In this document: positions 313-38,426 of the stretch, piece after piece | How the letters are laid out: each line of letters begins with the position of its first letter | Position numbering within the stretch: the stretch's first letter is position 1 | Virus record (IMG/VR): IMGVR_UViG_3300035670_000311 | Span: 1 to 50,318 of that record | Strand: one strand, 5' to 3' | Source of the DNA: a virus | Length of the DNA: 50,318 nt | Translations under genes and position numbers: made by a program | Notes under the pieces: generated by a model | Database searches by the model: none | Seen by the model: only the letters and a program-made list of their open reading frames with translations | What the model was told of the DNA's origin: nothing

Positions 313-339
313 ACACCCGCTTCGGCGGGTGTTTTTTTT
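313..339 (+). terminator. Rho-independent terminator after gp32
   Basis: An 8-bp stem, ACACCCGC at 313-320 pairing with GCGGGTGT at 325-332, is closed by a TTCG loop (321-324) on a C-G pair, an extra-stable tetraloop arrangement. A run of T follows at 332-339. It ends the gp32 transcript at a convergent junction. The T-run overlaps the stop codon of the minus-strand gene (338-340). On the minus strand the same hairpin has A's before it and no T-run after it, so it should act mainly on the plus strand. Confidence 0.92.
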
Positions 340-2062
340 ATGCGCCGGTCATTGCTTGCGTTAGTAGTTTATTGAAGTCATCATTATAGGTTGACGCTAT
401 TGGTCCACCTTGGCCAGATGAAGTATTATTCGTTCTGACCGAATTATCAACGTTAACGTTTGTAACACCACCATTAGCGGCCAGCTTACGGCTCTCGTCA
501 GCAACACTTGCTGTGGCCGTAGAAACTTTTGTCCCAAGTGAAGTTGTTGACATTTCTCTTGCGATTTTCGTTCTCTTCTCTATTGCTCCAGCTTGATCTT
601 TAGGTCTTTCAACATCCGTTACAAATGCTTTTGTAGCTTGTTCTAATGTAGATGCACCAACAAAGTCTTTGGATTGTTTTGCAGCGGCAATTGCTAATCC
701 AATATTTGTATTTGGATCTTTCAATTGTTCAACGGAATAACCTTTACCTAAACCACCATTTCTATTCATTTGAAACAATCCAACAGAATCTTCACCATTC
801 TTTGTATTGTGTGCTGTTGGGTCTAATGATGATTCGGCTTGAGCATTTGCTACCGCAGCTCTTGCTTGAACATCTGTAAATCCGGCAGATATGAAACTAT
901 CATAAATTAAATTTGCCATATCCGATTGACTTTGTTTCATATTTGTTGGTGAAGAGCTCGACTCATCACCACTATCATTTAATAGATCGTCTATAATCTT
1001 AGTTATATCACTTAAAGTCCAAATCGCAAGAATTGCAGTTAAAATCCAACCTACTGGTCCAGAGAAAGCTAAAGCACCAACAACCCAACCTAATCCACGT
1101 TTAGCCATTATGGCACCAAATTTGGCCCACGCTTTCGGACTTTTCATAAGTCTCGATAACTTTTGTGCTAGAGTTTTCTTTCCTGCTTCTTTTTGACCTT
1201 GAATTGTTAGTGAGCCTGCTCCACCACCTTTGGAAGATATTTTTGGTTTACCATCTGATCTAGTTGCAGTGTCTCCGCCTTTTTGGCCTGGTATGACTGT
1301 TCCTGGTGACTTCCGACCTGTTGGTGGTTGTGTTGTTGGTGCTGGCGTCGTTCTTGGTGTCGGAATTAATGCTTTAGCACCAGCAAATTTTAATGCGCCG
1401 ACGGCAAGTGATAACGCGGCCAGTCCAGCAATTACTTTATATAAAACACCAGATAGTGAATCAAATAAAGGTTTTAATTTGTCAGCAAAAGCCACAGCCA
1501 AACCTGACAATACACCTAATGCCATACCACCAAGAAGCCCAGTCATTGCAGAATTATCTTTAGATTCCGGTCTGTTTAAATTTGTTGGTGAGTTATTTGT
1601 TTTGCCAAATTGTTTTTCATATTCGTTTTCTCTTTGTTTTGATCGCATGAAAAACATATCAGGTCTTTTTGCAACTTTACCACCTTGAAGACTGACGAGT
1701 TTCATAATATTCAACTTCATCAAATTCATGTCCATAGCCATCTTTGGTAGAACCACAGAATTTTTAGCTGATATTTTTGTATCTTGTCTTATGCTTGATA
1801 AGATTTCAACGGATTCTGTTGAGAGTGTCGAATCCAGTGAGGATATTTTAGAAACAGGACTTTCTCTATCAGCAGTCGCACTATAACCTTTTCCAAATAT
1901 TTTTTTGCCAATAGTTGACGTTAGTCCGCCACCAGAAAATAAAAAGTTTCTGACATCAAAGATTTCTTTCAGTCTTTTTCCACCAGCAGAAACGGCACCA
2001 CCAACGATGCCTTTTGTTTTATATTCTTGTTCTAATATCTTGGCTAGTCTTCCTGTTGCCAT
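338..2062 (-). CDS. Tape-measure-like tail protein with C-terminal lysozyme domain
   Basis: 574 residues, close to T4 gp29 (590). The N-terminal 160 residues are basic and partly helical. Hydrophobic stretches lie near residues 171-193, 203-232 and 323-350, separated by a Pro/Thr/Gly-rich linker (about 233-285). Residues about 380-495 look like a phage lysozyme-type domain: E410 in AQAESSLDP is the probable catalytic acid, followed by SVGLFQMN. Hydrophobic segments plus a peptidoglycan hydrolase are common in tape-measure proteins, and this gene lies directly downstream of the gp26/gp51 tail-chaperone-like pair, the usual place for a tape measure. It starts 2 bases after the gp51-like stop, with GAGGA just upstream. 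The role is an inference from size, domains and position; the lysozyme call is firmer than the tape-measure call. It could supply the cell-wall activity that gp5 lacks here. Confidence 0.7.
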   Translation of the reverse strand: MATGRLAKILEQEYKTKGIVGGAVSAGGKRLKEIFDVRNFLFSGGGLTSTIGKKIFGKGYSATADRESPVSKISSLDSTLSTESVEILSSIRQDTKISAKNSVVLPKMAMDMNLMKLNIMKLVSLQGGKVAKRPDMFFMRSKQRENEYEKQFGKTNNSPTNLNRPESKDNSAMTGLLGGMALGVLSGLAVAFADKLKPLFDSLSGVLYKVIAGLAALSLAVGALKFAGAKALIPTPRTTPAPTTQPPTGRKSPGTVIPGQKGGDTATRSDGKPKISSKGGGAGSLTIQGQKEAGKKTLAQKLSRLMKSPKAWAKFGAIMAKRGLGWVVGALAFSGPVGWILTAILAIWTLSDITKIIDDLLNDSGDESSSSPTNMKQSQSDMANLIYDSFISAGFTDVQARAAVANAQAESSLDPTAHNTKNGEDSVGLFQMNRNGGLGKGYSVEQLKDPNTNIGLAIAAAKQSKDFVGASTLEQATKAFVTDVERPKDQAGAIEKRTKIAREMSTTSLGTKVSTATASVADESRKLAANGGVTNVNVDNSVRTNNTSSGQGGPIASTYNDDFNKLLTQAMTGA

Positions 2063-2064
2063 TT

Positions 2065-2205
2065 TTATCCTCGTTTTTGTGCGTTAAGCAATTTTATTTT
2101 TTCGTTTTCCTCATCCAAATATTTTATTAATAATGTAATATAGATGCTTCTTTCCCACGGCATCATATTTTCAATTTCAGTCAAACTATATTTGTGGTGT
2201 TGCAT
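2065..2205 (-). CDS. 51: gp51-like baseplate hub assembly / tail chaperone protein, likely also made as a gp26 frameshift extension
   Basis: A 46-residue frame starts at the ATG at 2205 (MQHHKYSLTEIENMMPWERS...) and ends KLLNAQKRG. The MPWER-IY block is, from memory, typical of short gp51-like proteins in marine T4-like phages; T4 gp51 is much longer (249 residues). The frame stays open upstream of this ATG through protein-like sequence (RLIFGYDNLSNYFQTNFSL) and runs back into the end of gp26 at a T TTT TTC heptamer. There is no clear Shine-Dalgarno sequence in front of the ATG at 2205, which favours synthesis as a gp26 fusion of about 308 residues. The stop lies 2 bases before the tape-measure-like gene. 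gp51 acts in assembly of the central baseplate hub. Confidence 0.65.
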   Translation of the reverse strand: MQHHKYSLTEIENMMPWERSIYITLLIKYLDEENEKIKLLNAQKRG

Positions 2206-2255
2206 CAAAGAAAAATTAGTTTGAAAGTAATTACTTAAATTGTCATAACCAAAAA

Positions 2256-2990
2256 TTAAACGAAAAAATTTTCAAGTCCTTCTACTAAAACATCTTCTTC
2301 ATACTTACACTTTGGACAAACAAACTTTATATTCTTTCTTATCCTAGGTGTCGAATCAAAAAAATCTTTAAATTTCTGCAAGTCTTTTGTTTGCAATGAT
2401 TCTACAAATTCTTCTAACTCTTTCTTTGTTACGTCTTTTGCATAATAAACATTGTCTTTATCATAAACGTAATCGATACAACCAATAAGTGTTTCTAAAA
2501 TAGAATTAACCTCATCCTCAGCATTGTAATTTTCTAAAACTTTAAAGTTTGGGTATTTCAGTACAACGCCAACATTTTCAGTAATTTCAATTTTATTATT
2601 TTGTTTCTTATCTATTTTTGGTATGATGTCGTTAATATTTACATCAATCTCAACAATATTATTACAGTTTTTATCTTCTTTAGATTCACTATCAAAAATT
2701 TTATTGTTGCAACGATATTTTAAATTAACAACTTCACCAACCGATTTAGCCCTCAATTGCAAAAAGATCTGTTCAATATCAAATAGCGGTAACTCTTCAA
2801 CATCAACTTTATCAAGTATGCAATTGTTAATTACTTGTTTTGCTGTTTCGATTACACCAGAAACATCATCACTTTCTGCTGCCATCAAAAACAACTTTTC
2901 TTCTTTCACCGTAAACGGTCTAAATCTTATCTTTTTTCCAGTAGATAAAAGTTTTAGATCATAAATCGGTACGTCAATTTTAGGTAACAT
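2256..2990 (-). CDS. 26: Baseplate hub subunit gp26 / tail assembly chaperone-like
   Basis: 244 residues, beginning MLPKIDVPIYDLKLLSTGKK with the conserved RFRPFTVKEEKLFLMAAES block of the T4 baseplate protein family (gp26). Cysteine pairs suggest small metal-binding knuckles: RCNN...C near the middle and CPKCKYEED near the C-terminus. T4 gp26 has 208 residues and takes part in central hub assembly. The start is supported by GGAGAAA a few bases upstream. The gene ends in the slippery run used to propose frameshifting into the gp51-like frame, the arrangement known for tail assembly chaperones (lambda G/GT type). Family call is confident; chaperone function is inferred. Confidence 0.85.
   Translation of the reverse strand: MLPKIDVPIYDLKLLSTGKKIRFRPFTVKEEKLFLMAAESDDVSGVIETAKQVINNCILDKVDVEELPLFDIEQIFLQLRAKSVGEVVNLKYRCNNKIFDSESKEDKNCNNIVEIDVNINDIIPKIDKKQNNKIEITENVGVVLKYPNFKVLENYNAEDEVNSILETLIGCIDYVYDKDNVYYAKDVTKKELEEFVESLQTKDLQKFKDFFDSTPRIRKNIKFVCPKCKYEEDVLVEGLENFFV
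2262..2268 (-). other. Putative -1 programmed ribosomal frameshift site joining gp26 to gp51
   Basis: On the minus strand the gp26 frame reads AAT TTT TTC GTT TAA. The T TTT TTC heptamer fits the X XXY YYZ slippery pattern. A slip of -1 continues as CGT TTA ATT TTT GGT TAT and enters the gp51-like frame without a stop. An AAGGA (plus positions 2277-2281) lies 8 bases before the heptamer, where an internal Shine-Dalgarno can stimulate -1 slippage, as in dnaX. No strong downstream stem is obvious. Confidence 0.6.
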
Positions 2991-3005: not shown

Positions 3006-3746
3006 TTAAAAGATTCTTTCTAACAAGCGAGCACCAGCCAAACCAAATAAAGAAGCGGCAGCTTGTGTTAGATCATATTCTCCCTCATAAAGTGTTCTAA
3101 ACTTTTGATAAGAAAATTGCACTGTCACACGATGAAAATTGTCATCGGTCCAAGCTAAAGGTTGTGATGCTACTCCTATTGGAAAGGCATCAATCAATTC
3201 TACAGCATAAATTTGTTTAATAAAATCATCGTATTGGATGATCTTTATATTTGTCATGTATCTAGTTTCTTCATCTTTGGCATAACGAAGATTGTTTGTA
3301 TCATTAGGCATTATTGCATCAATCCATTGGTCAAACAACTTTCTTTCATAAAAGTCATTTGTACATAAGAAACCTAAATTAATATCGGAAAATTGTTTTT
3401 GGTATGGAACTTTAAATGTGGGTCCATAAATTTTAACATCATTTGTCTGTAATGTTTTTCCTGGTAATTCTGCACTCTCACATTGCAATGAGAGATATCT
3501 GGAGATCGAAGCGTTACTCGTTCTAGATTGTGGGTTAACAGTATTCGTGCCTAACGCATTTGTAACTGCACCGGTGATATCTGTAACAATAGTATTTGGT
3601 AAATTCAATAATCTTTCGAGTACACTCGATTCAATAAAATTATTAATGTATGGTGGAATAGGTAAAATTACCTGAAAACGATTTGGTTTAGCCAAACCAT
3701 CTTTGGCTTTAATGTTTGATAAAAATAAATTTGGTGCGAATGACAT
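3006..3746 (-). CDS. 54: Tail-tube-fold baseplate protein, gp54-like (tube initiator)
   Basis: 246 residues from the ATG at 3746, which overlaps the previous stop (TAATG) and has AGGA upstream; a longer frame to 3833 exists but would run through the preceding gene. The sequence fits the gp19/gp54 tube-fold pattern: a start like AKPNRFQVILP, then LQCESAELPGK, a central FKVPYQKQFSDINLGFLC strand region, FDQWIDAIMP, and a late LAWTDDNFHRVTVQFSYQKF resembling the T4 tube motif D-N-x-x-x-F-x-V-x-x. gp54 sits on the hub and, with gp48, nucleates tail tube assembly. It is shorter than T4 gp54 (320). Another tube-like role is possible. Confidence 0.65.
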   Translation of the reverse strand: MSFAPNLFLSNIKAKDGLAKPNRFQVILPIPPYINNFIESSVLERLLNLPNTIVTDITGAVTNALGTNTVNPQSRTSNASISRYLSLQCESAELPGKTLQTNDVKIYGPTFKVPYQKQFSDINLGFLCTNDFYERKLFDQWIDAIMPNDTNNLRYAKDEETRYMTNIKIIQYDDFIKQIYAVELIDAFPIGVASQPLAWTDDNFHRVTVQFSYQKFRTLYEGEYDLTQAAASLFGLAGARLLERIF

Positions 3747-17260: not shown

Positions 17261-20200
17261 ATGACTACTACATTTAATTACGATCCATATTTTGACGATT
17301 TTGATGAAGATAAGAACTTCATGCGAGTTCTATTCAAGCCTGGATATTCTGTTCAATCCAGAGAGTTAACACAGTTACAAACAATTTTATCAGATCAAAT
17401 CGAAAAATTTGGTAATCACATTTTCAAAAGTGGTAGTCCAATCATCGGCGGTAAAATTTCTCTTGATGACAGAGCATATTATCTGGTTTTAAATTCTCAA
17501 TATAATGATCAAGATATAGACGTAACTCAGTTTGAAGGTAAAATTATTGTTGGTTATAACACAACTAAAAGTGTTAGAGCTAAAGTTATTGCTGTCGATA
17601 ATAGCACAACAAATCCAATTTTAGTTTTAAAATACTTGACCGCCTCTGTTTTCGAAGAGTCTGATGAAATTAAAGTTTATGGCCAAAACATTTTTGCTCA
17701 AGCAAAAGATACTAGTGCTGTCGGTAGATCATATGTTGCCAGCATTTTAGATGGCGTTTATTATTTTAAAGGACAATTTGTTAAGGTTGTTCCGCAATTT
17801 TTAGTGTTAGAACTTTTTTACAAAATTGGTTATAATGCATCTACAACTAATAAACAACCATCATATAAAATTGGTATTGAATTTGAACCAACAATTGTAG
17901 ATTACATTGACGACTCTTCTTTATTAGATCCAGCTCAAGGTGCCTTCAACTATCAGGCCCCTGGTGCAGATCGATTCGCTATCAATACAAGACTCTCGAA
18001 GAGAACATTGGATTCTGCCGACGAATCTTCTTTCTTTGAAGTCATACGTATTGTTGATGGTATCAAAACGAAAGAAGTTGAATACCCAATTTACAGTGAA
18101 ATCGAAAAAACTTTAGCTCGCAGAACATATGAAGAATCCGGAAACTATACAGTAGATCCTTTTGTTCTATCTTTAGAAGAAACTGCTTATAACGCCAACA
18201 ATGAAGTTGATCCTAATTATTTTACAGCAGTTTTGGATCCAGGTAAAGGATATGTTGGTGGTTATGAATTACAAACAATTGCTCCAACAAAAATTAAAAT
18301 TCCGAGAGCTAGACAAACAAATTCGGTAAATCAATACGATTTACCAACAAATTATAATAGTACGGTTGCCATTGAAACTTTATTTGGTACACTAAACATC
18401 ACTGCTTTCCCAGTAATTGATATTCATTGTACTACTCAAAGTACAATTAACTCATCTGGAACAACAGAATACGAATCAACTAAAATTGGTACAGCTCGAG
18501 TAGATATGTTGAAATACAATGATGCCACAGATTCAAATGATGGCACGACTCACTCTTTCTTGATGCACCTGTTCGATGTTAATTCGACACCAATTACTGG
18601 AACTTTACAATCTAGTGGTCATACAACTACATCCATAAAGTTTGATAGTGATTTTTCTGGAACAGCTACCGCTAATTCTTATGCAAATATGTATTTTAGA
18701 ATTACTGACGGTGCCGGAACATCTTTATCGCCAATTAGAATCGTTTCTTCAGATGCTTCGACTAAAACATTAGTTCTTTCTCAAGCTCTGCCCTTTACAC
18801 CAAGTTCAAATACCTTCTCCATCGAATCAGATTTTAAAGTTGCAAAATCTTTTTCTGTTAGAACTGGTTCAAGCATTTCCTTCTCGGCCAACATAAATTC
18901 AGATTCAATTTCTACTGAAGGTTTTGCTTATATCAACGAGCCAAAGAGAACAAGTTTAATTTTTGATACTCCCTATCAGTCAATAAAAGCTGACACCATT
19001 GAGAATTTGGACTTCTATGCTAGAAAGTTATATTCAAATAAAGTCTCTAGTGCTGGTGGAATTATAACCATCGAGACTGATGGTACCGATACTTTTGCCT
19101 TTGCTGGTTCTCCAGGATCATTATCTGATCCACAAATTTTAAATAATATTGTGTGCTTTGTTAGATCAGATTCGGTTGAAGTTTCTGCTGATGGAATTTT
19201 CCAAAATAGAATTTTAAGTTTGGCTAATAGTGCTTTTACTGTTACTGCAATAAGTTCTTCTCAGATCGACATTGACGTTGGTGCTGCAGGTGTTCGTGCT
19301 GATTTCTTGATAACCACAAAAATTAATTCTGCTGAAAGTGGTAGTACAGGTGCAATCAGAGGCAAACAACTTTTACCATTAAGTGATTCTCTACATGAAA
19401 AAGTTCCTTATAATTTAGGTGATCCACTCAATGATGGATTAGACGTTGCAAATACTGGTACGGTAACAACTGTAACCGGTGGTTATGTTTTCCAAGATGT
19501 TGGTGGTGTTTTCTTTGATACTCCTGCTACTGTTACACAATTAAAAACTCCTGGCGTTTCAGTAAGTTTAAACATTCCAGATGTTTATGAAATCGTTAAA
19601 ATTATTGATTCGAGATCAACGGGCAACGTAACGACCGCTATGTTGACGGATGATGCGTATGATGTGACAAATAATTATGAATTTGATAATGGCCAAAGAA
19701 AGACTCATTATGACCATGCATCTATCAAACTAAAACGTGGTTATAGTTCACCTGTTGGTTCCACAATTTACGTTCAATTAAAGTATCTGAAACATCAATC
19801 TGCTCCATCACCACAAAATAATGGACTCTTTACTGTTGATTCATATGTTAAGACTGGTTCAAACTTTACATATGATGACATGTCCAGATTCTTAAATAGT
19901 GAAGATGGTAAATTTATTTCAATGAGATCTTGTTTAGACTTTAGACCAACAAGAGGTATCGGTTCAGATACTTTGAGTGGTGCATTAAACGTTGAACCAG
20001 ATTACACAGCTGAATTCGATTTTGAATATTATCTCTCTAGAATCGATCGAATTGTAGCCAAACCTTCTAAAGAGTTTGTTGTCATTTCCGGTAAATCGGA
20101 TGTGAATCCAGTTCCTCCGCCGGTACAACCAACAGATATGCTCTTATATACATTGAGTATTCCTGCATATACTGAAACTACAAAAGAAATTGTTTCGGAA

Positions 20201-23200
20201 TTTAAAAATAATCGGCGATTTACAATGAATGACATCGGCTCATTCGAAAACAGAATTAAAGGTTTAGAATACTATGTTGCACTCTCTAGCCTAGAAAAAA
20301 ATGCGGCAGATTCAAAAGTTTTAGATGCCAATGGATTGGAGAGATCGAAATACGGTATTGTTGTTGATAACTTTACAAATAGAGATGTACAAGCCACTTA
20401 TGGTGATGCTGGATTCGACAACAGAAACTTAATTGAAAATGGCGAACTAAAACCAGCATCATTGATGAGAACATTTAAACTCAAATGGTCAGAAGCCAAT
20501 TCGACAGGAAGTTTTGTTGCGACAGGTGTAAACGACCAAAAATCTCTGATGTTGGATTATACAACAGATACGTTTGCAGAACAAAAATATGCAACAAAAT
20601 TTGTTCCTGTAGCTAGTGCTCTGTTTGCAAACTTCAACGGAAAAATGAAATTGTTCCCAGAATTCACTAGTGAAGTGGATACTGGCCACACAGCTCAAGT
20701 AACATTGGATTCTTTAAATGGTATCGATAGTGCATTTAACTTTATCAATGATGCGTTTAAATGGGTGTCAGACCAAAATCCAACTTGGGTAAATGATGCC
20801 GACAATCCTTTTGCTAAAATTGTTGATAGTAAGTGGTTTGAAACTGTTACAACCGTAAACGACCAAACTGTTGACTTAGGAAACTGGACAAGAGGAAACT
20901 TACAAACGACAACAGATCAAGTATTCATTTCTCAAGGCGCAGAATTGAATATGAATCAGATATCAACATCTAAATCTACTGTTGATGTTGGTACTTTCAT
21001 TACAGATCTTTCGATTCAACCATACATCAAACCAGTTCCAATTATCTTTAATGCAACAGGATTAAAACCAAATTCTAGATACTATTCTTTCTTCGATAAA
21101 GTCTCAGTTGATAATTATATTGTTAATCCTACAAAGTTGAGAACAACTTCATCTGATATCGGCGGCCGCCATTTTATTTCTGGCGAGTTTGCACTAATAT
21201 CAGATTCTCCTGCAAATTTAAATATTGCTATTGGCAATTATAATTCAGGTATAACTGGAGGTTATAAGTTGGTTCGCGTAACCAACGTTGAAATTGTAAC
21301 CGATTCTTTACTCACAAAAGTTGATGATATTCATATTGTAAATGAGGTTGAAGATAATTTAGATGGTCAATGGTTATTTGGCTTAGATAGCAAATCATAT
21401 TTTGCCATTTCTTCAGTAACCAATCATAAATCTGGTTTGACAAGAGCAGTAGGAACATCAACAATAACTTTAGCTGCTGATGCTCCTTCTGTCGATATTT
21501 CTGGTAATACAGTAACACTTGTACATTCCACAGATAGTGATGATGGCCACGGCGTAACTTATACTGTCACATCTTATAATACTTCTACAAAAGTAGCCAC
21601 AATTAGTGGAACAACTTCTGCAATTGAAAGAGCCAAAACATGGACTTACTCAATTGGAAATAATAATGCAAACGCAAGAGGCGATTTGTCTGGTGTATTT
21701 TATCCGCCTGCTGCAACATTTAGAAATGGTGAAAGAAACTTTAGAGTAACCGAATCTTCAAATGACACATATGATACGGACGCTATTTCTTTTGCAGAAA
21801 AAACTTTCGTATCTTCCGGTGTTAAAGTAAACAAAACGAATCTTTTAAATACTGTTTACAACGTTGATGTTGGTGTTCAATTTGTCGGTAATGCTACTAG
21901 TGATCTCTTACAATCTACATCAACAACATCTAGAATAACAAATACTTGGAGTGTACCAAGACCGGATCCATTAGCACAAACTTTCTATGTGGATCCAGAT
22001 GTCTATCCAAATGGAATGTTTATTTCTAATACTAAGTTATTCTTTAGAAGTAAAGATACAGATTTACCAGTAACTATACAAATTAGACCCACTGTAAATG
22101 GAAGTCCTTCTTCTGACTTTGCTTATCCTGAATCGATCGTCGTCAAGTATCCTACAGAAGTTATAACATCAGATACACCAGATGTTAATAATTCGGAAAC
22201 TTACACACAATTTGATTTTAAATCTCCTGTTTATTTGGCTCCAGGTTTATATGCTCTAGTAATCTTAACAGACAGTCCTGATTATTCTGTTTGGGTGGCA
22301 GAAAAAGGTAAGACGACTTTAAACAACGAATATGTTTCTATTAATCCATATGTTGGAACATTGTACAAATCTCAGAATACTATGGAATATGCAGAGTATC
22401 TGAATGAAGACTTGATGTTTACTATGGATAGATGTGTATTCTCCTCTTCAGCTGCTACGTTCTCATTACAAACAGAAACACAAAATAGAAAATATTATTT
22501 TGATAAGTTTAGAGTGTTAACGAAAACTTTAGAAAATCTTACAAATGGTCCAACAACTATAACATATTCTTTCGTATCCACAGATACAAATGGAATTAAA
22601 GAAACTTCTTATAGAGAAATACAACCTTTTGTGACATATTCTTTAGGTTCAGACACCCTATATTCAATTGGAAACAAGAGAAAGCAAATACAAAATCAGT
22701 CTGATTTCAATTTGTCAATAACAATTTCTTCAACTGATAATGCAGTTTCTCCTTTAATTTCCCTCGAAAGTTTATTCTTGAATGCTTGGGAGAATTTCGT
22801 TGATAACGCTGAAGTTAATACAGAAGACTTCAACATAATTGCACCGGGTTCTGGTTATGCAAACACTCATCAGATAACAATTAATTCATCAACTGGTACT
22901 GGCGCACAAGTATACTTTGTTGTCGATAATAGTCCAACAGGAAATGTTGTTGGTATTAATGTTGCATCAGCAGGTTCTGGATATTATGATGACTTTACCA
23001 TTTCTTATCCTTTGGCTGGCGAAAGCACGGTCACCTCAAATGCATCAATCATATTGAACACAGAATATGATTCATCTGGTGGTCCTTGTCTGGCTCGTTA
23101 TATTACGAAACCAATTACTTTAGCTGATGGATTTGACGCCGGTGACCTAAGAGTTTTCTTGTCTGCAAATAGACCAGGAAATTCCGAAATACATGTTTAC

Positions 23201-23485
23201 TATAAATTATTATCGGGATCAGATACAACAAGCTTCAAAGATAGACCATATCAGAAAATGGAATGTTTCAATCCATCAACGGTACCATCGTTAACTGATA
23301 CTGATTATAGAGAATTCGAATATCGACCATCATTAACAGATGATTTCGTCACTTATACATCTGACTCGGGTGTGACATACGATAGCTTTAAAACATTCTC
23401 AATTAAAATTGTTATGACGACTAATGATACTACTGTTGTTCCAAAAGTTAAAGATTTGAGAATAATTGCTTTACCAGCCGGTTAA
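17261..23485 (+). CDS. Giant baseplate/fibre-base protein with DUF4815-type N-terminus
   Basis: 2074 residues, the largest gene here. The N-terminus FNYDPYFDDFDEDKNFMRVL followed by FKPGYSVQSRELTQLQTILS and IEKFGNHIFKSGSPIIGG is the DUF4815 signature seen in marine myoviruses next to gp8. The middle is a long series of beta-rich, Ser/Thr/Asp-rich domains. Around 1580-1700 a RPDPLAQTFYVDPDVYPNGM block with TIQIRPTVNGSPSS is also typical of the family. A Gly-Ser-Gly-Tyr repeat pair sits near 1856-1920, and the C-terminus (VVPKVKDLRIIALPAG) is a beta domain. T4 genes 9-12 are not seen here, so this protein probably takes over the outer baseplate and fibre attachment; this is an inference. A clear ribosome site (CGAGGAATAAATG) defines the start. 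Confidence 0.85.
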   Translation: MTTTFNYDPYFDDFDEDKNFMRVLFKPGYSVQSRELTQLQTILSDQIEKFGNHIFKSGSPIIGGKISLDDRAYYLVLNSQYNDQDIDVTQFEGKIIVGYNTTKSVRAKVIAVDNSTTNPILVLKYLTASVFEESDEIKVYGQNIFAQAKDTSAVGRSYVASILDGVYYFKGQFVKVVPQFLVLELFYKIGYNASTTNKQPSYKIGIEFEPTIVDYIDDSSLLDPAQGAFNYQAPGADRFAINTRLSKRTLDSADESSFFEVIRIVDGIKTKEVEYPIYSEIEKTLARRTYEESGNYTVDPFVLSLEETAYNANNEVDPNYFTAVLDPGKGYVGGYELQTIAPTKIKIPRARQTNSVNQYDLPTNYNSTVAIETLFGTLNITAFPVIDIHCTTQSTINSSGTTEYESTKIGTARVDMLKYNDATDSNDGTTHSFLMHLFDVNSTPITGTLQSSGHTTTSIKFDSDFSGTATANSYANMYFRITDGAGTSLSPIRIVSSDASTKTLVLSQALPFTPSSNTFSIESDFKVAKSFSVRTGSSISFSANINSDSISTEGFAYINEPKRTSLIFDTPYQSIKADTIENLDFYARKLYSNKVSSAGGIITIETDGTDTFAFAGSPGSLSDPQILNNIVCFVRSDSVEVSADGIFQNRILSLANSAFTVTAISSSQIDIDVGAAGVRADFLITTKINSAESGSTGAIRGKQLLPLSDSLHEKVPYNLGDPLNDGLDVANTGTVTTVTGGYVFQDVGGVFFDTPATVTQLKTPGVSVSLNIPDVYEIVKIIDSRSTGNVTTAMLTDDAYDVTNNYEFDNGQRKTHYDHASIKLKRGYSSPVGSTIYVQLKYLKHQSAPSPQNNGLFTVDSYVKTGSNFTYDDMSRFLNSEDGKFISMRSCLDFRPTRGIGSDTLSGALNVEPDYTAEFDFEYYLSRIDRIVAKPSKEFVVISGKSDVNPVPPPVQPTDMLLYTLSIPAYTETTKEIVSEFKNNRRFTMNDIGSFENRIKGLEYYVALSSLEKNAADSKVLDANGLERSKYGIVVDNFTNRDVQATYGDAGFDNRNLIENGELKPASLMRTFKLKWSEANSTGSFVATGVNDQKSLMLDYTTDTFAEQKYATKFVPVASALFANFNGKMKLFPEFTSEVDTGHTAQVTLDSLNGIDSAFNFINDAFKWVSDQNPTWVNDADNPFAKIVDSKWFETVTTVNDQTVDLGNWTRGNLQTTTDQVFISQGAELNMNQISTSKSTVDVGTFITDLSIQPYIKPVPIIFNATGLKPNSRYYSFFDKVSVDNYIVNPTKLRTTSSDIGGRHFISGEFALISDSPANLNIAIGNYNSGITGGYKLVRVTNVEIVTDSLLTKVDDIHIVNEVEDNLDGQWLFGLDSKSYFAISSVTNHKSGLTRAVGTSTITLAADAPSVDISGNTVTLVHSTDSDDGHGVTYTVTSYNTSTKVATISGTTSAIERAKTWTYSIGNNNANARGDLSGVFYPPAATFRNGERNFRVTESSNDTYDTDAISFAEKTFVSSGVKVNKTNLLNTVYNVDVGVQFVGNATSDLLQSTSTTSRITNTWSVPRPDPLAQTFYVDPDVYPNGMFISNTKLFFRSKDTDLPVTIQIRPTVNGSPSSDFAYPESIVVKYPTEVITSDTPDVNNSETYTQFDFKSPVYLAPGLYALVILTDSPDYSVWVAEKGKTTLNNEYVSINPYVGTLYKSQNTMEYAEYLNEDLMFTMDRCVFSSSAATFSLQTETQNRKYYFDKFRVLTKTLENLTNGPTTITYSFVSTDTNGIKETSYREIQPFVTYSLGSDTLYSIGNKRKQIQNQSDFNLSITISSTDNAVSPLISLESLFLNAWENFVDNAEVNTEDFNIIAPGSGYANTHQITINSSTGTGAQVYFVVDNSPTGNVVGINVASAGSGYYDDFTISYPLAGESTVTSNASIILNTEYDSSGGPCLARYITKPITLADGFDAGDLRVFLSANRPGNSEIHVYYKLLSGSDTTSFKDRPYQKMECFNPSTVPSLTDTDYREFEYRPSLTDDFVTYTSDSGVTYDSFKTFSIKIVMTTNDTTVVPKVKDLRIIALPAG

Positions 23486-26900: not shown

Positions 26901-27371
26901 ATGAACATTGAAGAATTTGAGAATTTCATACAAAATGATTTAGTTTATGATGAATGTTTGATATCGATAATAGACGATCTAGGTAGGCAGATATATCTAG
27001 ATCGTCTTGGTGATTTATATAAACATCAAAAAAATACGATCAAGGTTGAGGGACTTGAAAAATACAACGAGTCTCTCTTTTTAAAATGTCAAGAGTTGGG
27101 TAAAAGATATAATCACTTTGGCCCAATTACCTGCCACGCTTTTCGTGGTTTTAATTCTTCCCATTCTTTTCCACTACATACTGATCCAGATGATATACTA
27201 TTGTATATGGTTTATGGTGAAAAGAAAATTATAATAAATGATAAAGAAGTATCGCTTAAAGAGGGTGATGAAATTTTTATTCCTGCAAACACAAAACACA
27301 AAGCAATTTATACGGGCGATTCTTTAATGTTAAGTTTTGGTTTGGAAAAATTTTTAGTTGATAAATTATGA
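26901..27371 (+). CDS. Cupin/JmjC-like oxygenase, first gene of the modification cluster
   Basis: 156 residues. The C-terminal half is a cupin barrel: SFPLHTDPDDILLYMVYGEK carries H93-x-D95, and IPANTKHKAIYTGD supplies H133, giving the HxD...H metal triad of Fe(II)/2-oxoglutarate oxygenases. The phrase LHTDPDD followed by a glycine-lysine segment resembles JmjC/cupin-4 proteins, some of which hydroxylate protein Arg or His. No arginine for 2OG binding can be assigned with certainty. It overlaps the radical SAM gene by ATGA, so the two are probably made together. It lies before the internal late promoter. Substrate is unknown; a plain metal-binding cupin is an alternative. Confidence 0.65.
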   Translation: MNIEEFENFIQNDLVYDECLISIIDDLGRQIYLDRLGDLYKHQKNTIKVEGLEKYNESLFLKCQELGKRYNHFGPITCHAFRGFNSSHSFPLHTDPDDILLYMVYGEKKIIINDKEVSLKEGDEIFIPANTKHKAIYTGDSLMLSFGLEKFLVDKL

Positions 27372-28402
27372 ATTATTCTTTCTATTTGAAAACGACCGAA
27401 ACGTGCAATTTGAATTGTAAACACTGTTTCACGAACGGCATCAATGGCCCAAAAATTTATTGGGACTATAAAAAAGTCACTGATTGGATAAAAAGGTTTA
27501 CAGAAGTTAATACTGGCACATTACATTGTGAGTTTCACGGTGGAGAACCATTTCTCGCACCACTTGAACAGATGCAATATGTTTGGAATGAATGTAAAGA
27601 TTTGTGGCCAAACATTTCTTGGGGCGTAACAACAAATTTAGTTTTTAAGTTAACACCAGAACATGTTGATTTTATCAAAGGACCCCTTGGTGGTAGAATT
27701 GGCACATCTTGGGACCCAAAGATAAGATTCGATAACGAAAAACAATCTGATCTTTGGTTAAGAAATGTAAAATTTCTTTTAAGTGAAGGTGTTGTAATAA
27801 AATTATTCGTAAGTGTAACTAAAGATACAGTTAATATAGAACCTATACATTTATTATCTTGGCTGAAAGAATTGGGAGTTCAAGAAGTTTCTTTTGAACG
27901 ACTAACAGGTAACGGAAGTGCAAATAAACATCCTGAAATATTTCCAACAAATATTGAACAGGATCAATGGTTTCTAAAAATGCACAAACAATCAGAACAA
28001 TATGAAGCTAGACACTGGTTCGAAAATGAATTTTTGGAAACGGTTTATGATAAATTCGAAAAAAATTTTCTAGCCGGAGGTACTTTTTGCCGAGATTGTG
28101 AAGAAAAGTTGTTTACAATTAACGCAGACGGATCAATTTCTGGATGTCCAAATGCAGCACCAGAATTTCAATTTGGACATATTAACGACAATATAATCGA
28201 TCTTTTAAATAGTCCTAAAAGAATAGAAAATATAGTATGTGAGAGAAGTCGTGACGCAAGATGCCTTTCATGTGAAGTCTTTGAGTATTGTGGTGGTGAC
28301 TGCCATCAATTAGAATGGCAAGGAGACATTTGTGGTGCACCAAAAAGTTTAATGAAATATCTTAAAGGCGATAAAAAAGTTTGGTTTTTTAAGTCTGTTT
28401 AG
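27368..28402 (+). CDS. Radical SAM protein with SPASM-like C-terminus (rSAM 1)
   Basis: 344 residues. The [4Fe-4S] motif CNLNCKHC has C13, C17 and C20 (CxxxCxxC), and HGGEP at 57-61 is the usual SAM-contacting GGE/P motif. The C-terminal third is Cys-rich: CRDCEE, SGCPNAA, ARCLSCEVFEYCGGDCHQLE and a final DICGAPK, the pattern of a SPASM/auxiliary-cluster domain found in peptide- and protein-modifying radical SAM enzymes. It is the last gene before the candidate substrate, which starts 38 bases downstream. This is the enzyme I would first suspect of acting on the Cys-His repeats. The exact chemistry cannot be read from the sequence. Confidence 0.88.
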   Translation: MNYSFYLKTTETCNLNCKHCFTNGINGPKIYWDYKKVTDWIKRFTEVNTGTLHCEFHGGEPFLAPLEQMQYVWNECKDLWPNISWGVTTNLVFKLTPEHVDFIKGPLGGRIGTSWDPKIRFDNEKQSDLWLRNVKFLLSEGVVIKLFVSVTKDTVNIEPIHLLSWLKELGVQEVSFERLTGNGSANKHPEIFPTNIEQDQWFLKMHKQSEQYEARHWFENEFLETVYDKFEKNFLAGGTFCRDCEEKLFTINADGSISGCPNAAPEFQFGHINDNIIDLLNSPKRIENIVCERSRDARCLSCEVFEYCGGDCHQLEWQGDICGAPKSLMKYLKGDKKVWFFKSV

Positions 28403-32664: not shown

Positions 32665-33708
32665 ATGATTGATGATGATTTTTTTTATGATGTAATAAAA
32701 GATAAAGTTATAGATTACGTTGAAGTAGTCGTTTTACTTTTTGAGCATTGTAATATGTCTTGCGTTTTTTGTCCTCAAGACCATAACGATTTATTGGGGG
32801 CAACAAGAGAAGAAATTCTAAGTAAATGCCCACAAATCATAAAATTCATAAATGAAAATCCTAAAAAAGATTTTCTTATGCATATTATGGGAGGTGAACT
32901 TTTTCAAGATAAATTTATAAATTCTGGTTTTATAAATTACTATCAAGAATTTATTGATACGATAAAATCAAATGTAAAAGAAGATAAGAATATTACTTTT
33001 CTTTTTGTTACAAATTTAGTTTATGATTGTATAGATGAAGTTGTAGAATTTTGTAAGAAAAATAAATTAAAAATGAATGTTTCTTATGATTTAGCTGGAA
33101 GATTTACTCAACCACAATTGGAAATCTACAAGAAAAATATTGAAAAATTTAAAGAATATGTCAATATAATAAGTTTAGTAATAACTAAACAAAACATAGA
33201 TAAGCTTTTAAAAGGTGACGAATACTTTGATTATCTATATGAAAATTTTATTTGTGATTGGGATAAATTATTACCAGGAAAAAACTTTAATGATGCTTTG
33301 ATGCCAAAACAATCTGAACTTTTTATGTTTTATAAACATCTTGTTGATAAGTATCCAAGGTGTAATAATGTAAAATATTTTACAGATAAAGAACAAAGAC
33401 ATAAAATGTCTTGCACTAGAGGCAGTAGTTACACTATTTTAAATGATAACAGTGTTCCTAAAGGATGTTCAGGTAGTGTTCTATTAAAAGATCCTAAAAC
33501 ACAAGAATTAGGCGGCACAAAAATTATTCAGTTTTTTATGAAAGAACATGATTGTTTTTCATGTGAGTTTTATAGTAGATGTGGTTTCACTTGTTTTATA
33601 AGAAATGATTATAAAAATTTAATAAAAGATATGGATGAGTGCGTGTTCAAAGAAGTTTTTAAGTATGTTGAATCAAAAAATAATATTTCAAAAGAAAATT
33701 CAAACTGA
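32665..33708 (+). CDS. Radical SAM protein with Cys-rich C-terminus (rSAM 2)
   Basis: 347 residues. CNMSCVFC at 29-36 is the CxxxCxxC cluster motif, and MGGEL the GGE motif. The C-terminal region has SCTRGSSYTILNDNSVPKGC, then CFSCEFYSRCGFTCF and DECVF, a SPASM/twitch-like auxiliary cluster set. This kind of enzyme modifies peptides or proteins, for example by forming thioether or C-C crosslinks or epimerising residues. It overlaps the next gene by 44 bases. Substrate unknown; the Cys-His protein is the obvious candidate in the cluster. Confidence 0.85.
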   Translation: MIDDDFFYDVIKDKVIDYVEVVVLLFEHCNMSCVFCPQDHNDLLGATREEILSKCPQIIKFINENPKKDFLMHIMGGELFQDKFINSGFINYYQEFIDTIKSNVKEDKNITFLFVTNLVYDCIDEVVEFCKKNKLKMNVSYDLAGRFTQPQLEIYKKNIEKFKEYVNIISLVITKQNIDKLLKGDEYFDYLYENFICDWDKLLPGKNFNDALMPKQSELFMFYKHLVDKYPRCNNVKYFTDKEQRHKMSCTRGSSYTILNDNSVPKGCSGSVLLKDPKTQELGGTKIIQFFMKEHDCFSCEFYSRCGFTCFIRNDYKNLIKDMDECVFKEVFKYVESKNNISKENSN

Positions 33709-35392
33709 CAAAAGATTAAAAATATCTTTTGTTAATCCTCCTCACGCTGATTGGTCACTATGTAACAATATGACCTTTTTGATGTGTCAAACTCACTATA
33801 ATATTTTTGGTAAATATAAAGAAAATGTTGACTGGATAAAAGCGCCATACAAATGGAATACGTACAAAAGTGTAATGGAAGTATTCCAAGAGCTATCTGA
33901 ATGTGATATTATTATGTTTAGTTCTTATGCTTGGAATTATGGTATAAATGATGATTTAGCCAAGTATATAAAACAAAATTTTCCTCAAAAAATTTGTGTT
34001 TTAGGTGGCCCACATATTGGAACAAATGAACCTAAATTTTTGCAGTCTAGAAAATTTTACGATTTTATTTGTCAACCAACTAAACCTGGTGAACCTTTTA
34101 TCGAAGATTTAATTGATAGTTGGTTTGAAAATAACGGAAAACCTAAAGTTGAAGATATATGTTGGGAATTAAAAAGTTGTAAACAAAAAAAACATGATAT
34201 CGATTCAGAAATTTCTGTTTATGAAGAACACTTGGATTACTTAAAAGAGATGTTACAATATGCAAAAAGTAATAAAATGGAACCTTTCATTGTCTTAGAG
34301 ACAACAAGAGGTTGTCCTTATGGTTGCGTGTTCTGTGAATGGGGTGGTGGAATAGGAACAAAAATTATTAAAAAAAGTGTTGACTTGGTAAAAAGAGACA
34401 TTATGGCTTTAAAGAAGGCCGGTTTCAGAGATGCCTATTTGACTGATGCCAATTTTGGTGCATTTAAAGATAGAGATATAGAAATATTCAAATTTGCTTG
34501 GGAAAATAATTTTAACTTAACTGATATATCTACCGTAAAAATTAAAAATTTGGAAAGAAGAAAACAGTTAATAGACGCTTGGTTTGATGTGGTTGGTAAA
34601 GGACCAGAAAAACATAGCAAAAGTGAAGGTGGAACTGATATGTGGGGAGAAACAGAATATATTTCAGTTGTACCAACTGTTAGTATACAGAGTATCAGTG
34701 AAGAAGCTATGAAAGTTGCCGATAGGACAGATTTATGCACTAAAGATAAAATAGAGTTGAGTAGATACATAAAAGAAAGATGTGAAAACGAAGGGTATCC
34801 TGTTCCAGCTATAGAGTTAATATTAGGAATGCCAGGATCTACAATAGAAGATTTCTATTCTGAGATGGAAATAATATGGAATTTTCAAGCTTGGTCGAGC
34901 TTTAGGCATGATTATATGTTTTTACCAGACAGTAAATTAAACTCTAAAGAATATCGAGAAAAATATAAAATTAAAACCGTTGAAGTTTTTTCAGATATTG
35001 TGGATGAAGACGGTATAGATAATTGGAATAGTCTGTATAAGAATAAAAAAACATATTTTAAAACAATGCAGTCTTGTTATTCCTATACAAAAGAAGAGAT
35101 GCATGAGATGTGGTTTATGAATAACGCAGGTAATTTTTTACTTAAAAATATTTACCCATCTTTGCAATCTTATATTGATCCTAAAAATTTTGGTAAAAAG
35201 TGTTTTAAAATAATTTCTAAATTGGATGATTTTGAAAACATACACAAAGAGATTATAGATATATTTGATGAAAATACTGAACCAAAATCGATTAGAAAAT
35301 TACAAGGAAAATTTAGAACCGAGGTTATAGAAGATATGTTAAAGAAAAATGAAATTATCATAAAAAATGAAATAATGAAAAAAGTATTATGA
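33665..35392 (+). CDS. B12-binding-domain radical SAM protein (rSAM 3)
   Basis: 575 residues from the ATG at 33665; a longer frame reaches 33635 but both starts lie inside the previous gene. Residues 18-150 resemble a cobalamin-binding Rossmann domain (KISFVNPPHADW; ECDIIMFSSYAWNYG; ICVLGGPHIGTNEP). The radical SAM domain follows with ETTRGCPYGCVFCEWGGGIG (C217, C221, C224), and a GMPGSTIEDF motif typical of this class near residue 390. B12-dependent radical SAM enzymes often methylate unactivated carbons, and several act on peptides. Helical C-terminal domain of about 120 residues. It overlaps the next gene by ATGA. Confidence 0.88.
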   Translation: MLNQKIIFQKKIQTDKRLKISFVNPPHADWSLCNNMTFLMCQTHYNIFGKYKENVDWIKAPYKWNTYKSVMEVFQELSECDIIMFSSYAWNYGINDDLAKYIKQNFPQKICVLGGPHIGTNEPKFLQSRKFYDFICQPTKPGEPFIEDLIDSWFENNGKPKVEDICWELKSCKQKKHDIDSEISVYEEHLDYLKEMLQYAKSNKMEPFIVLETTRGCPYGCVFCEWGGGIGTKIIKKSVDLVKRDIMALKKAGFRDAYLTDANFGAFKDRDIEIFKFAWENNFNLTDISTVKIKNLERRKQLIDAWFDVVGKGPEKHSKSEGGTDMWGETEYISVVPTVSIQSISEEAMKVADRTDLCTKDKIELSRYIKERCENEGYPVPAIELILGMPGSTIEDFYSEMEIIWNFQAWSSFRHDYMFLPDSKLNSKEYREKYKIKTVEVFSDIVDEDGIDNWNSLYKNKKTYFKTMQSCYSYTKEEMHEMWFMNNAGNFLLKNIYPSLQSYIDPKNFGKKCFKIISKLDDFENIHKEIIDIFDENTEPKSIRKLQGKFRTEVIEDMLKKNEIIIKNEIMKKVL

Positions 35393-36875: not shown

Positions 36876-37375
36876 AGAATTTTTTTGACAATGGATTTTG
36901 TTCTTTGTTTGATTATGAATTGGCTCAAGAAATAAACTTAAAAACCATCAATTGGAAATATGAAGGTGGAGAAAAAAACGATTTTGTACCAGAAAAAAAT
37001 TCATTTTTAGATGCTGAGTTATTAAATGTTCATATGAAAATAGCGGAAAAATATGTCGATAAATATTTCTCCGAGTATCATGTAAAAAAACGAAGAATAT
37101 GGAAAGGTGTAAATGAAGACGCTACATTTTGGCATAATGATTTAAGGGAAGGACCAAATTGTTTTTTCTTATTGTATTTTTCAAATATGGAAAAAATTAA
37201 TGAGGGAGCCGTATATTTTAAAAGTGGTAAAAAAGAATTCAAAATATATCCTAAACCAGGAACATTAATTGCCGTAAATTGTAGTGAAAATTTTTTCCAC
37301 AAAGCCGACTTTACGGATAAGGAAAGAATACAAGCGTCTTTTTGTTTTGATATAAATTATGGAACTTATAATTAA
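36866..37375 (+). CDS. 2OG-Fe(II)-oxygenase-like protein, HxD type (Oxy 4)
   Basis: 169 residues. FWHNDLREGPNCFFLLYFSN gives H90 and D92; ENFFHKADFTDKERIQASFC gives H145 and R154. The arrangement copies Oxy 3 (H90, D92, then H-K-A-D), so the two are paralogues. Between them lies a PKPGTLIAVN strand-turn. All residues needed for Fe(II) and 2OG binding appear present. Likely side-chain hydroxylase; substrate unknown. Overlaps the previous gene by 10 bases and the next by 17. Confidence 0.82.
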   Translation: MDIKNFFDNGFCSLFDYELAQEINLKTINWKYEGGEKNDFVPEKNSFLDAELLNVHMKIAEKYVDKYFSEYHVKKRRIWKGVNEDATFWHNDLREGPNCFFLLYFSNMEKINEGAVYFKSGKKEFKIYPKPGTLIAVNCSENFFHKADFTDKERIQASFCFDINYGTYN

Positions 37376-38426
37376 ACCTACTGAAAAATGTAACTTTAAA
37401 TGTACATTTTGTTCGAGCACACACATCTCTGAGGATAAAACCGCAGAGTTAGACCATCAAAAAATATTTCAATTTTTAGAAAGATTTCCAGAAACAAATA
37501 CTATTATTGTTAATGGTGGTGACCCATTAATGATGAGTCCAGATTATTACTGGAAAATAATAGATTGGTTAGATAAAAACAATTATAAAACTACCATAAG
37601 TTTAACGACAAATCTTTGGCCATTTTACAAAAACGTGAATAAGTGGAAAGACTTATTTTTAAATGAAAGAATAGGCATAGCAACAAGTTTTCAATATGGT
37701 GGTGGCCGATTAAAGGGTGATTTAACCGAATATACAGAAGAAGATTTCTGGAAAGTAAGTGACTGTATGTTGGAACATATAGGTTATAGGCCAGGATTCA
37801 TTACAGTAATAACAAAAGAAAACGAAAAAGACGCTATAAAAAATGTAGAGTTAGCGCAAAAAATGGACGTTGAATGTAAATTAAATTATGCTTTAAGTTC
37901 TGGACCGCCAGTAAAATTTAAGAATATAATCATGGGCCAACAGGGACAACCATATTTGCTTTCCGATATCTATGAAATTTATGTTGAAATTTATAAAAGA
38001 GGACTTTGGCAATGGGAATACAATACAAAACAAATGATGGTCAGATTAAAAGGTATGCAAACAACATGTCCGCAAAATAGAAGTTGTGATGAAAATATAA
38101 GAACCTTACAACCAGCTGGTGACTATTATAGTTGTGGTGCTTTTGGAGATGACATGTCACATTCAATAAATTTTGATGATGAAATGTCAGGTAAAAAGAT
38201 TTTTATTTTACAACAAGACCAAAATTTATTAAGTTTAAAACAAAGTTGTTTTACTTGTCCAATGTTTCAAATATGCAATGGTTGTAAGAAAACAATAAAA
38301 GATTTGAAAGACCATAATTTAGTTGAAAAACATTGTTTCAAAATGAAAACTTTAGCTAAAGATATAATTGAAATAAATGGTGTTGATTTGGAACCTACTG
38401 AGTACGTTAATGAACATATCAATTAA
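37359..38426 (+). CDS. Radical SAM protein with Cys-rich C-terminus (rSAM 4)
   Basis: 355 residues. KCNFKCTFCSS gives C11, C15 and C18; NGGDP at 52-56 is the SAM-binding motif. The C-terminal part carries TTCPQNRSCDENIRTLQPAG, DYYSCGAFGDD, CFTCPMFQICNGCKKT and KHCFKM, an auxiliary-cluster (SPASM-like) layout. The start at 37359 overlaps the oxygenase Oxy 4 by 17 bases, and the end overlaps rSAM 5 by 17 bases, so Oxy 4, rSAM 4 and rSAM 5 are translated as a coupled set. Confidence 0.87.
   Translation: MELIIKPTEKCNFKCTFCSSTHISEDKTAELDHQKIFQFLERFPETNTIIVNGGDPLMMSPDYYWKIIDWLDKNNYKTTISLTTNLWPFYKNVNKWKDLFLNERIGIATSFQYGGGRLKGDLTEYTEEDFWKVSDCMLEHIGYRPGFITVITKENEKDAIKNVELAQKMDVECKLNYALSSGPPVKFKNIIMGQQGQPYLLSDIYEIYVEIYKRGLWQWEYNTKQMMVRLKGMQTTCPQNRSCDENIRTLQPAGDYYSCGAFGDDMSHSINFDDEMSGKKIFILQQDQNLLSLKQSCFTCPMFQICNGCKKTIKDLKDHNLVEKHCFKMKTLAKDIIEINGVDLEPTEYVNEHIN

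Follow-up and report, generated by a model that had tools for sequence, protein, structure and literature searches.

We analysed a viral DNA of 50,318 bases, positions 1 to 50,318 of IMG/VR record IMGVR_UViG_3300035670_000311 (the window). At one locus it carries what we read as the tail assembly chaperone of a T4-superfamily virus, made in a short and a long form by -1 ribosomal frameshifting. We put the probability of this reading at roughly 0.93. It is based on the sequence of the locus, its conservation in relatives, the coding signature of the -1 frame, the paralogy of T4 gp51 and the predicted fold, from which we infer that slippage occurs, its rate and the chaperone role. Most ribosomes would finish the gp26 frame and produce the short form, in which an alpha/beta and zinc-ribbon-like part comes after the chaperone domain. 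A minority would slip back by one base with TTT and TTC in the P and A sites, both tRNAs re-pairing with TTT TTT, and would continue in the -1 frame to yield the 308-residue long form, which has a helical C-terminal extension (the "gp51" part). Before tube polymerisation, both forms would probably serve as a coat for the tape measure protein.

Organization of the Locus

The features of the locus are listed in Table 1. The gp26-like ORF matched PF12322 (T4_baseplate, gp26/gp51) with E = 1.2e-58 and a score of 198.9 bits, compared to a curated cut-off of 24.5, and phrog_150 with E = 3.1e-63. Its 3' end reads GAA GGA CTT GAA AAT TTT TTC GTT TAA, corresponding to the peptide EGLENFFV followed by the stop. 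A preliminary description of this DNA had placed the end of the gp26 frame three codons after the start of the heptamer, an AAGGA 8 bases upstream of it, and an open -1 frame giving a joined product of about 308 residues. All three features were recovered: the heptamer codons TTT TTC are followed by GTT and the stop, the AAGGA lies at 2281..2277, and the fusion has 308 residues. The -1 frame is closed by a TGA (2274..2272) directly before the heptamer, and is open from the heptamer to a TAA at 2067..2065, which amounts to 67 codons counted from the Phe-Phe (FF) pair, or a run-on of 65 codons. The extension matched phrog_634 (E = 1.7e-27) and the C-terminal end of phrog_150 (E = 3.3e-8). Its first ATG is codon 22 (index 21), and codon 21 is a TTG.

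Table 1. Features of the predicted tail assembly chaperone locus and its neighbors in the window.
Feature	Position	Strand	Details
Upstream gene, tail tube-like protein	3006..3746	-	Same strand; phrog_45, E = 4.3e-36
gp26-like ORF, predicted short tail assembly chaperone (TAC-N, G-like)	2256..2990	-	244 aa; stop TAA 2258..2256
AAGGA, Shine-Dalgarno-like, possible stimulator	2277..2281	-	8 nt upstream of the heptamer
Slippery heptamer T TTT TTC, predicted -1 frameshift site	2262..2268 (2268..2262)	-	Encodes Phe-Phe
-1 extension, gp51-like C-terminal part (TAC-C, T-like)	2065..2268	-	67 codons from FF plus stop
Predicted frameshift fusion (TAC-NC, GT-like)	2065..2990	-	308 aa; layout as T4 gp51
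Next gene, candidate tape measure	338..2062	-	574 aa; starts 2 nt after the gp51 stop

The gene that follows had been described as tape-measure-like. This is plausible in view of its three hydrophobic segments and a match, local only, to phrog_9570 (tape measure; E = 1.4e-7), but T4 gp29 gave no match to it at E <= 1. In the record of HTVC008M, the putative tape measure is found two genes on, and the next annotated gene in Shigella phage Ag3 is gp5. An order of G/GT and then tape measure is likely in the window, though it is not universal among relatives. The candidate tape measure also contains a lysozyme-like domain (Phage_lysozyme2, SLT; E = 5.2e-13 for the Pfam family Phage_lysozyme2), and the tape may carry a peptidoglycan-cutting part.

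Several features elsewhere in the window were also observed. Two radical SAM proteins, both matching phrog_1802, are encoded in one region (27368-28402 and 37359-38426, plus strand). A 2074-aa protein matching phrog_358, a PHROG without known function, lies downstream of the baseplate wedge genes (17261-23485, plus strand), and a 585-aa ORF (33635-35392, plus strand) had no PHROG match at E <= 1e-5.

Conservation of the Predicted Slip Site

A first set (166 loci and the window) was widened by adding more distant seeds, giving 267 loci plus the slice from the window (268 in all). Removal of 42 identical sequences, 8 without a gp26 end, 5 without a gp51 match and the window's own locus left 212 usable distinct loci. 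(In four of the five loci without a gp51 match, the contig ends directly behind an intact T TTT TTC; the fifth is a T4-type fragment.) When used as seeds, T4 gp26 and gp51 retrieved only 6 and 10 loci, and the gp26 sequences of Vibrio phages D525 and D509 found no matches in viral_contigs.

The gp26 and gp51 parts are joined in the -1 frame in 199 of the 212 loci; in the remaining 13, gp51 is a long gene of its own (T4 type), which in one of them (L188) is split over two ORFs. Conservation of the heptamer, and of the -1 frame upstream of the ATG, had been proposed as a check, and both are kept in all 199 loci of the joined layout, with TTTTTTC at the junction in 185, TTTTTTT in 13 and TTTTTTG in one. 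None of the 13 T4-type loci has the site; their FF pair is encoded as G/A TTC TTT or G TTT TTT, or is missing. In the first set (166 sequences tallied), 162 had TTTTTTC and three TTTTTTT, and Escherichia phage EcS1, which is of the T4 type, was without the site. Clustering at 50% protein identity gave 32 clusters, all with T TTT TTN (27 C, 4 T and 1 G). The taxa that carry the site include Kyanoviridae cyanophages, a Sinorhizobium phage, a Rhizobium phage, Acidovorax phage ACP17 and large Vibrio phages. It was also present in 5 of 11 records fetched later (Stenotrophomonas Moby, Pelagibacter HTVC008M, Vibrio V07, Cronobacter S13 and Rhizobium AF3); the remaining six were the T4-type RB43 and five without the run, and none of the 11 is among the 212. 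In public records, the gp51-like extension is unannotated in, for example, Synechococcus phage ACG-2014b (L002, 2501-2690) and Acidovorax phage ACP17 (L166, 2501-2670).

Silent positions were analysed in 92 clusters drawn from the 134 of the 166 loci that were kept. The third base before the FF pair is T in all 92 representatives, whatever the amino acid, and the first Phe of the pair is TTT in all 92; Phe elsewhere upstream is encoded by TTT 631 times and by TTC 221 times.

In the window itself, TTTTTTC occurs 43 times, compared to 44.2 ± 6.5 expected. The heptamer by itself thus carries no meaning, and the decisive evidence is comparative. The layout of the site, unlike the frequency of the motif, exceeds chance. 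There are 28 in-frame T TTT TTN sites in the stop-to-stop ORFs of at least 100 codons in the window; among these, the gp26 heptamer alone lies within 12 codons of its 0-frame stop. None of the others has so long a -1 extension (67 codons, compared to 34 for the runner-up).

Possible stimulators of slippage were sought on both sides of the site. A Shine-Dalgarno-like match of 4-5 nt, located 4-18 nt upstream, was found in 50 of 51 representatives. It coincides with a Gly that is kept in 92/92 representatives, and since T4-type gp26 has the same Gly, the AAGGA-like match may be a coding effect only. No strong downstream RNA structure was detected among the 60 of 92 representatives that were compared (mean z of -0.67 and -0.79, vs. 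+0.54 and -0.20 for controls), and a downstream stimulatory structure is weak at best.

Evidence for Translation of the -1 Frame

Of the alternatives to frameshifting, the one that survives best is a small gp51 gene of its own, with translation beginning at the Met at codon 22 (or the TTG at codon 21) or by re-initiation once the gp26 frame has terminated. In 162 of the 199 joined loci, the -1 frame reaches its first ATG at index 20 or 21, and gp51 is called as a separate gene in public annotations. In 14 of the 199 loci, moreover, an ATG lies within 4 nt of the gp26 stop, and coupled re-initiation is possible there. However, about 20 conserved codons of the -1 frame precede the Met and align in frame with T4 gp51. 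We examined this stretch in 51 representatives, taken from 102 sequences with the Met at index 21 and the stop three codons on. Codons 5-20 of the -1 frame contained stops in 0/51 representatives and had a pN/pS of 0.24; the same stretch contained stops in 51/51 in both the 0 and the +1 frame, with pN/pS values of 0.79 and 1.41. The stretch before the first conserved Met is under purifying selection, and in the -1 frame only.

The preliminary description had regarded a clear ribosome site for a separate gp51 as evidence against frameshifting. We found no such site before the first Met in the -1 frame, where the Shine-Dalgarno match was only 0 to 3 nt in the 51 representatives; by comparison, gp26 starts had matches of 4 to 7 nt in 49/50 cases (best candidate start each). 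In the record of phage Ag3, the annotators remarked of the equivalent ORF that it has "no identifiable ribosome-binding site". Ten of the 199 loci have no ATG at all within the first 25 codons of the -1 frame, and a separate start would leave the invariant silent Ts unexplained. A separate gp51 gene is consequently very unlikely, and frameshifting is strongly preferred.

The fusion might also be made by slippage of RNA polymerase, rather than the ribosome, on the T run, which could serve as the signal either way and would lead to an identical product. Longer runs would serve transcriptional slippage better. The run here is only six T, ended by C in 185 of the 199 loci, and the canonical X XXY YYZ register is observed in all 199, which makes this explanation even less probable than a separate gene. 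That AT-rich codon use and a conserved Phe-Phe produced the heptamer incidentally, as the chance-level frequency of the motif might suggest, is scarcely credible, considering that the pair is kept in 9 of 13 T4-type gp26 sequences with other codons or another preceding base, that the silent Ts are invariant, that only one of the 28 sites has this layout, and that the run is conserved over distant lineages in 32 clusters.

Relatives without the T Run

Relatives that lack the slippery run and keep both frames had also been named as evidence that would speak against frameshifting. Such relatives do exist, at family distance, in the Ackermannviridae and in Vibrio phages D509 and VPALA, but most of them are without a separate start for gp51. 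The Ackermannviridae loci (L268, L274, L278 and L280-L297, at the gp26 stop) comprise 17 distinct junctions and 4 duplicates, and all 17 have the form (A/G) ATT TTC AT(C/T) TAA. The -1 frame is kept, and has MPWHLD in place of the window's MPWERS motif. An ATG overlaps the stop in 4 of the 17; in the other 13, the first ATG of the -1 ORF comes only at index 14 to 19. The loci of D509 and VPALA (L272, 2481-2560, and L277, 2430-2560) both read A CTT TTC, then a Lys or Arg codon (AAG/AGA) and TAA, with an open -1 frame. D509 has an overlapping ATG, and in VPALA there is no ATG until index 43. (Like the later-fetched records, these loci are outside the 212.) The second ORF, i.e., the gp51-like -1 frame, is unannotated in many Ackermannviridae records.

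Because most of the run-less relatives have no usable ATG, we consider them to carry a changed slip site rather than to be evidence against frameshifting. The N NTT TTC core that they retain is also the slip core used in T7 gene 10. Judging from these sequences, the odds are slightly in favor of an exchange of the slip site during evolution in the Ackermannviridae and at least two Vibrio phages, which would have lost the heptamer and would still frameshift on the N NTT TTC core. Together with the T4 group, in which a duplicated and fused gene would have taken the place of slippage, this would represent three ways to the same pair of proteins in one family.

T4 gp26 and gp51

Both T4 proteins belong to PF12322, with E = 8.8e-64 for gp26 and E = 2.4e-51 for gp51 (over the Pfam cut-off). 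In phrog_150, T4 gp51 covers positions 13-280 of 282, to the end of the profile, and T4 gp26 only extends to 235. Comparison of T4-type gp51 and gp26 profiles gave E = 1.3e-11, and T4 gp51 matched the window fusion by blastp (E = 3.6e-11, over residues 22-290). In a further alignment, the gp26 domain, the slip site and the extension follow each other residue by residue and in frame. At the position of the slip site, T4 has GAG TTC TTT and EcS1 has GAA TTC TTT. T4 gp51 is accordingly a gp26 paralogue that carries the extension in frame. It is built like the predicted frameshift product, and T4 gp26 like the short one. The proposal that gp26/gp51 are the equivalent of G/GT is backed by this relationship and by the predicted fold (see below).

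In T4, the two genes lie on opposite strands and the slip site is lacking. This two-gene arrangement was not found in the window, which has the slip site and a single PF12322 match, a count that covers the 50318 bases of the record, so that a second copy could sit elsewhere in the genome. In the Pseudotevenvirus RB43, a long gp51 and a gp26-like ORF share one strand, gp51 being the upstream one.

In the literature, gp26 and gp51 have been listed as hub assembly chaperones, with gp51 described as required but not part of the final particle, and as a protein whose function is not known (PMC3004832). A role as the long form of a tail assembly chaperone would offer a reason why T4 gp51 is needed yet absent from the particle.

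Predicted Fold

The model of the window gp26 had a pLDDT of 94.0. Its best matches among solved structures were 3fgx (Z = 7.9), 2ob9, the HK97 chaperone (Z = 7.5), 3klu, which is YqbN (Z = 7.3), and 5ir0 (Z = 5.0); the fifth match had a Z of only 2.8. The matches cover about residues 1-94. 2ob9, 3klu and 3fgx are described as phage tail assembly chaperones in a passage that cites Pell et al. 2013 (PMC9603447). With all Z scores below 8, the model gives moderate support to a tail assembly chaperone fold for the N-terminal domain of gp26. Foldseek returned no significant E-value for the gp26 model (HK97 at 0.48 at best), and sequence searches found no solved relatives.

The model of a T4-type gp51 (pLDDT 91.4) has the same order of elements as the gp26 model, and adds predicted helices at 196-203, 208-221, 226-231 and 234-246, the first of which spans the position of the slip site. 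Compared to a viral library, it matched gp26 and gp51 relatives. Chaperones were missing from the list of its matches in the PDB, which counts against the chaperone reading, though the domain is common to both proteins by homology.

Comparison with Known Systems

For genes annotated in databases as "baseplate hub subunit" or "baseplate hub assembly catalyst", the second of which is often missed, the present reading offers a chaperone function and a two-product mechanism. It may be of use for better annotation of uncultured T4-like viruses, and provides a lead on slip-site turnover in the Ackermannviridae.

The abstract of a study by Vladimirov, Gautam and Davidson (2022, Virology 566:9-15) reportedly names genes 26 and 51. 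In later texts, Vladimirov et al. 2022 are credited with reporting that TAC-N genes of T4-like phages carry polyT signals for frameshifting (PMC12846349), and that some T4-like phages have one short and one fused gene (PMC10274946). A frameshifted chaperone is therefore already in print for T4-like phages, and the window represents another virus of the frameshifting group. According to the former text, the TAC locus of Vandenendeviridae and Andersonviridae has a -1 frameshift before the tape measure gene and a conserved T-run, much as predicted for the window, but with GTTTTT as the motif instead of T TTT TTC (PMC12846349).

Lambda G/GT and the HK97 chaperones likewise comprise a short form and a -1 frameshifted long form. 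In its predicted fold, the window protein is near HK97 2ob9, YqbN 3klu and 3fgx over residues 1-94, and differs from lambda and HK97 in the extra alpha/beta and zinc-ribbon-like part that follows the chaperone fold. The slip site differs as well, the window having a T-run where lambda has another heptamer, G GGA AAG.
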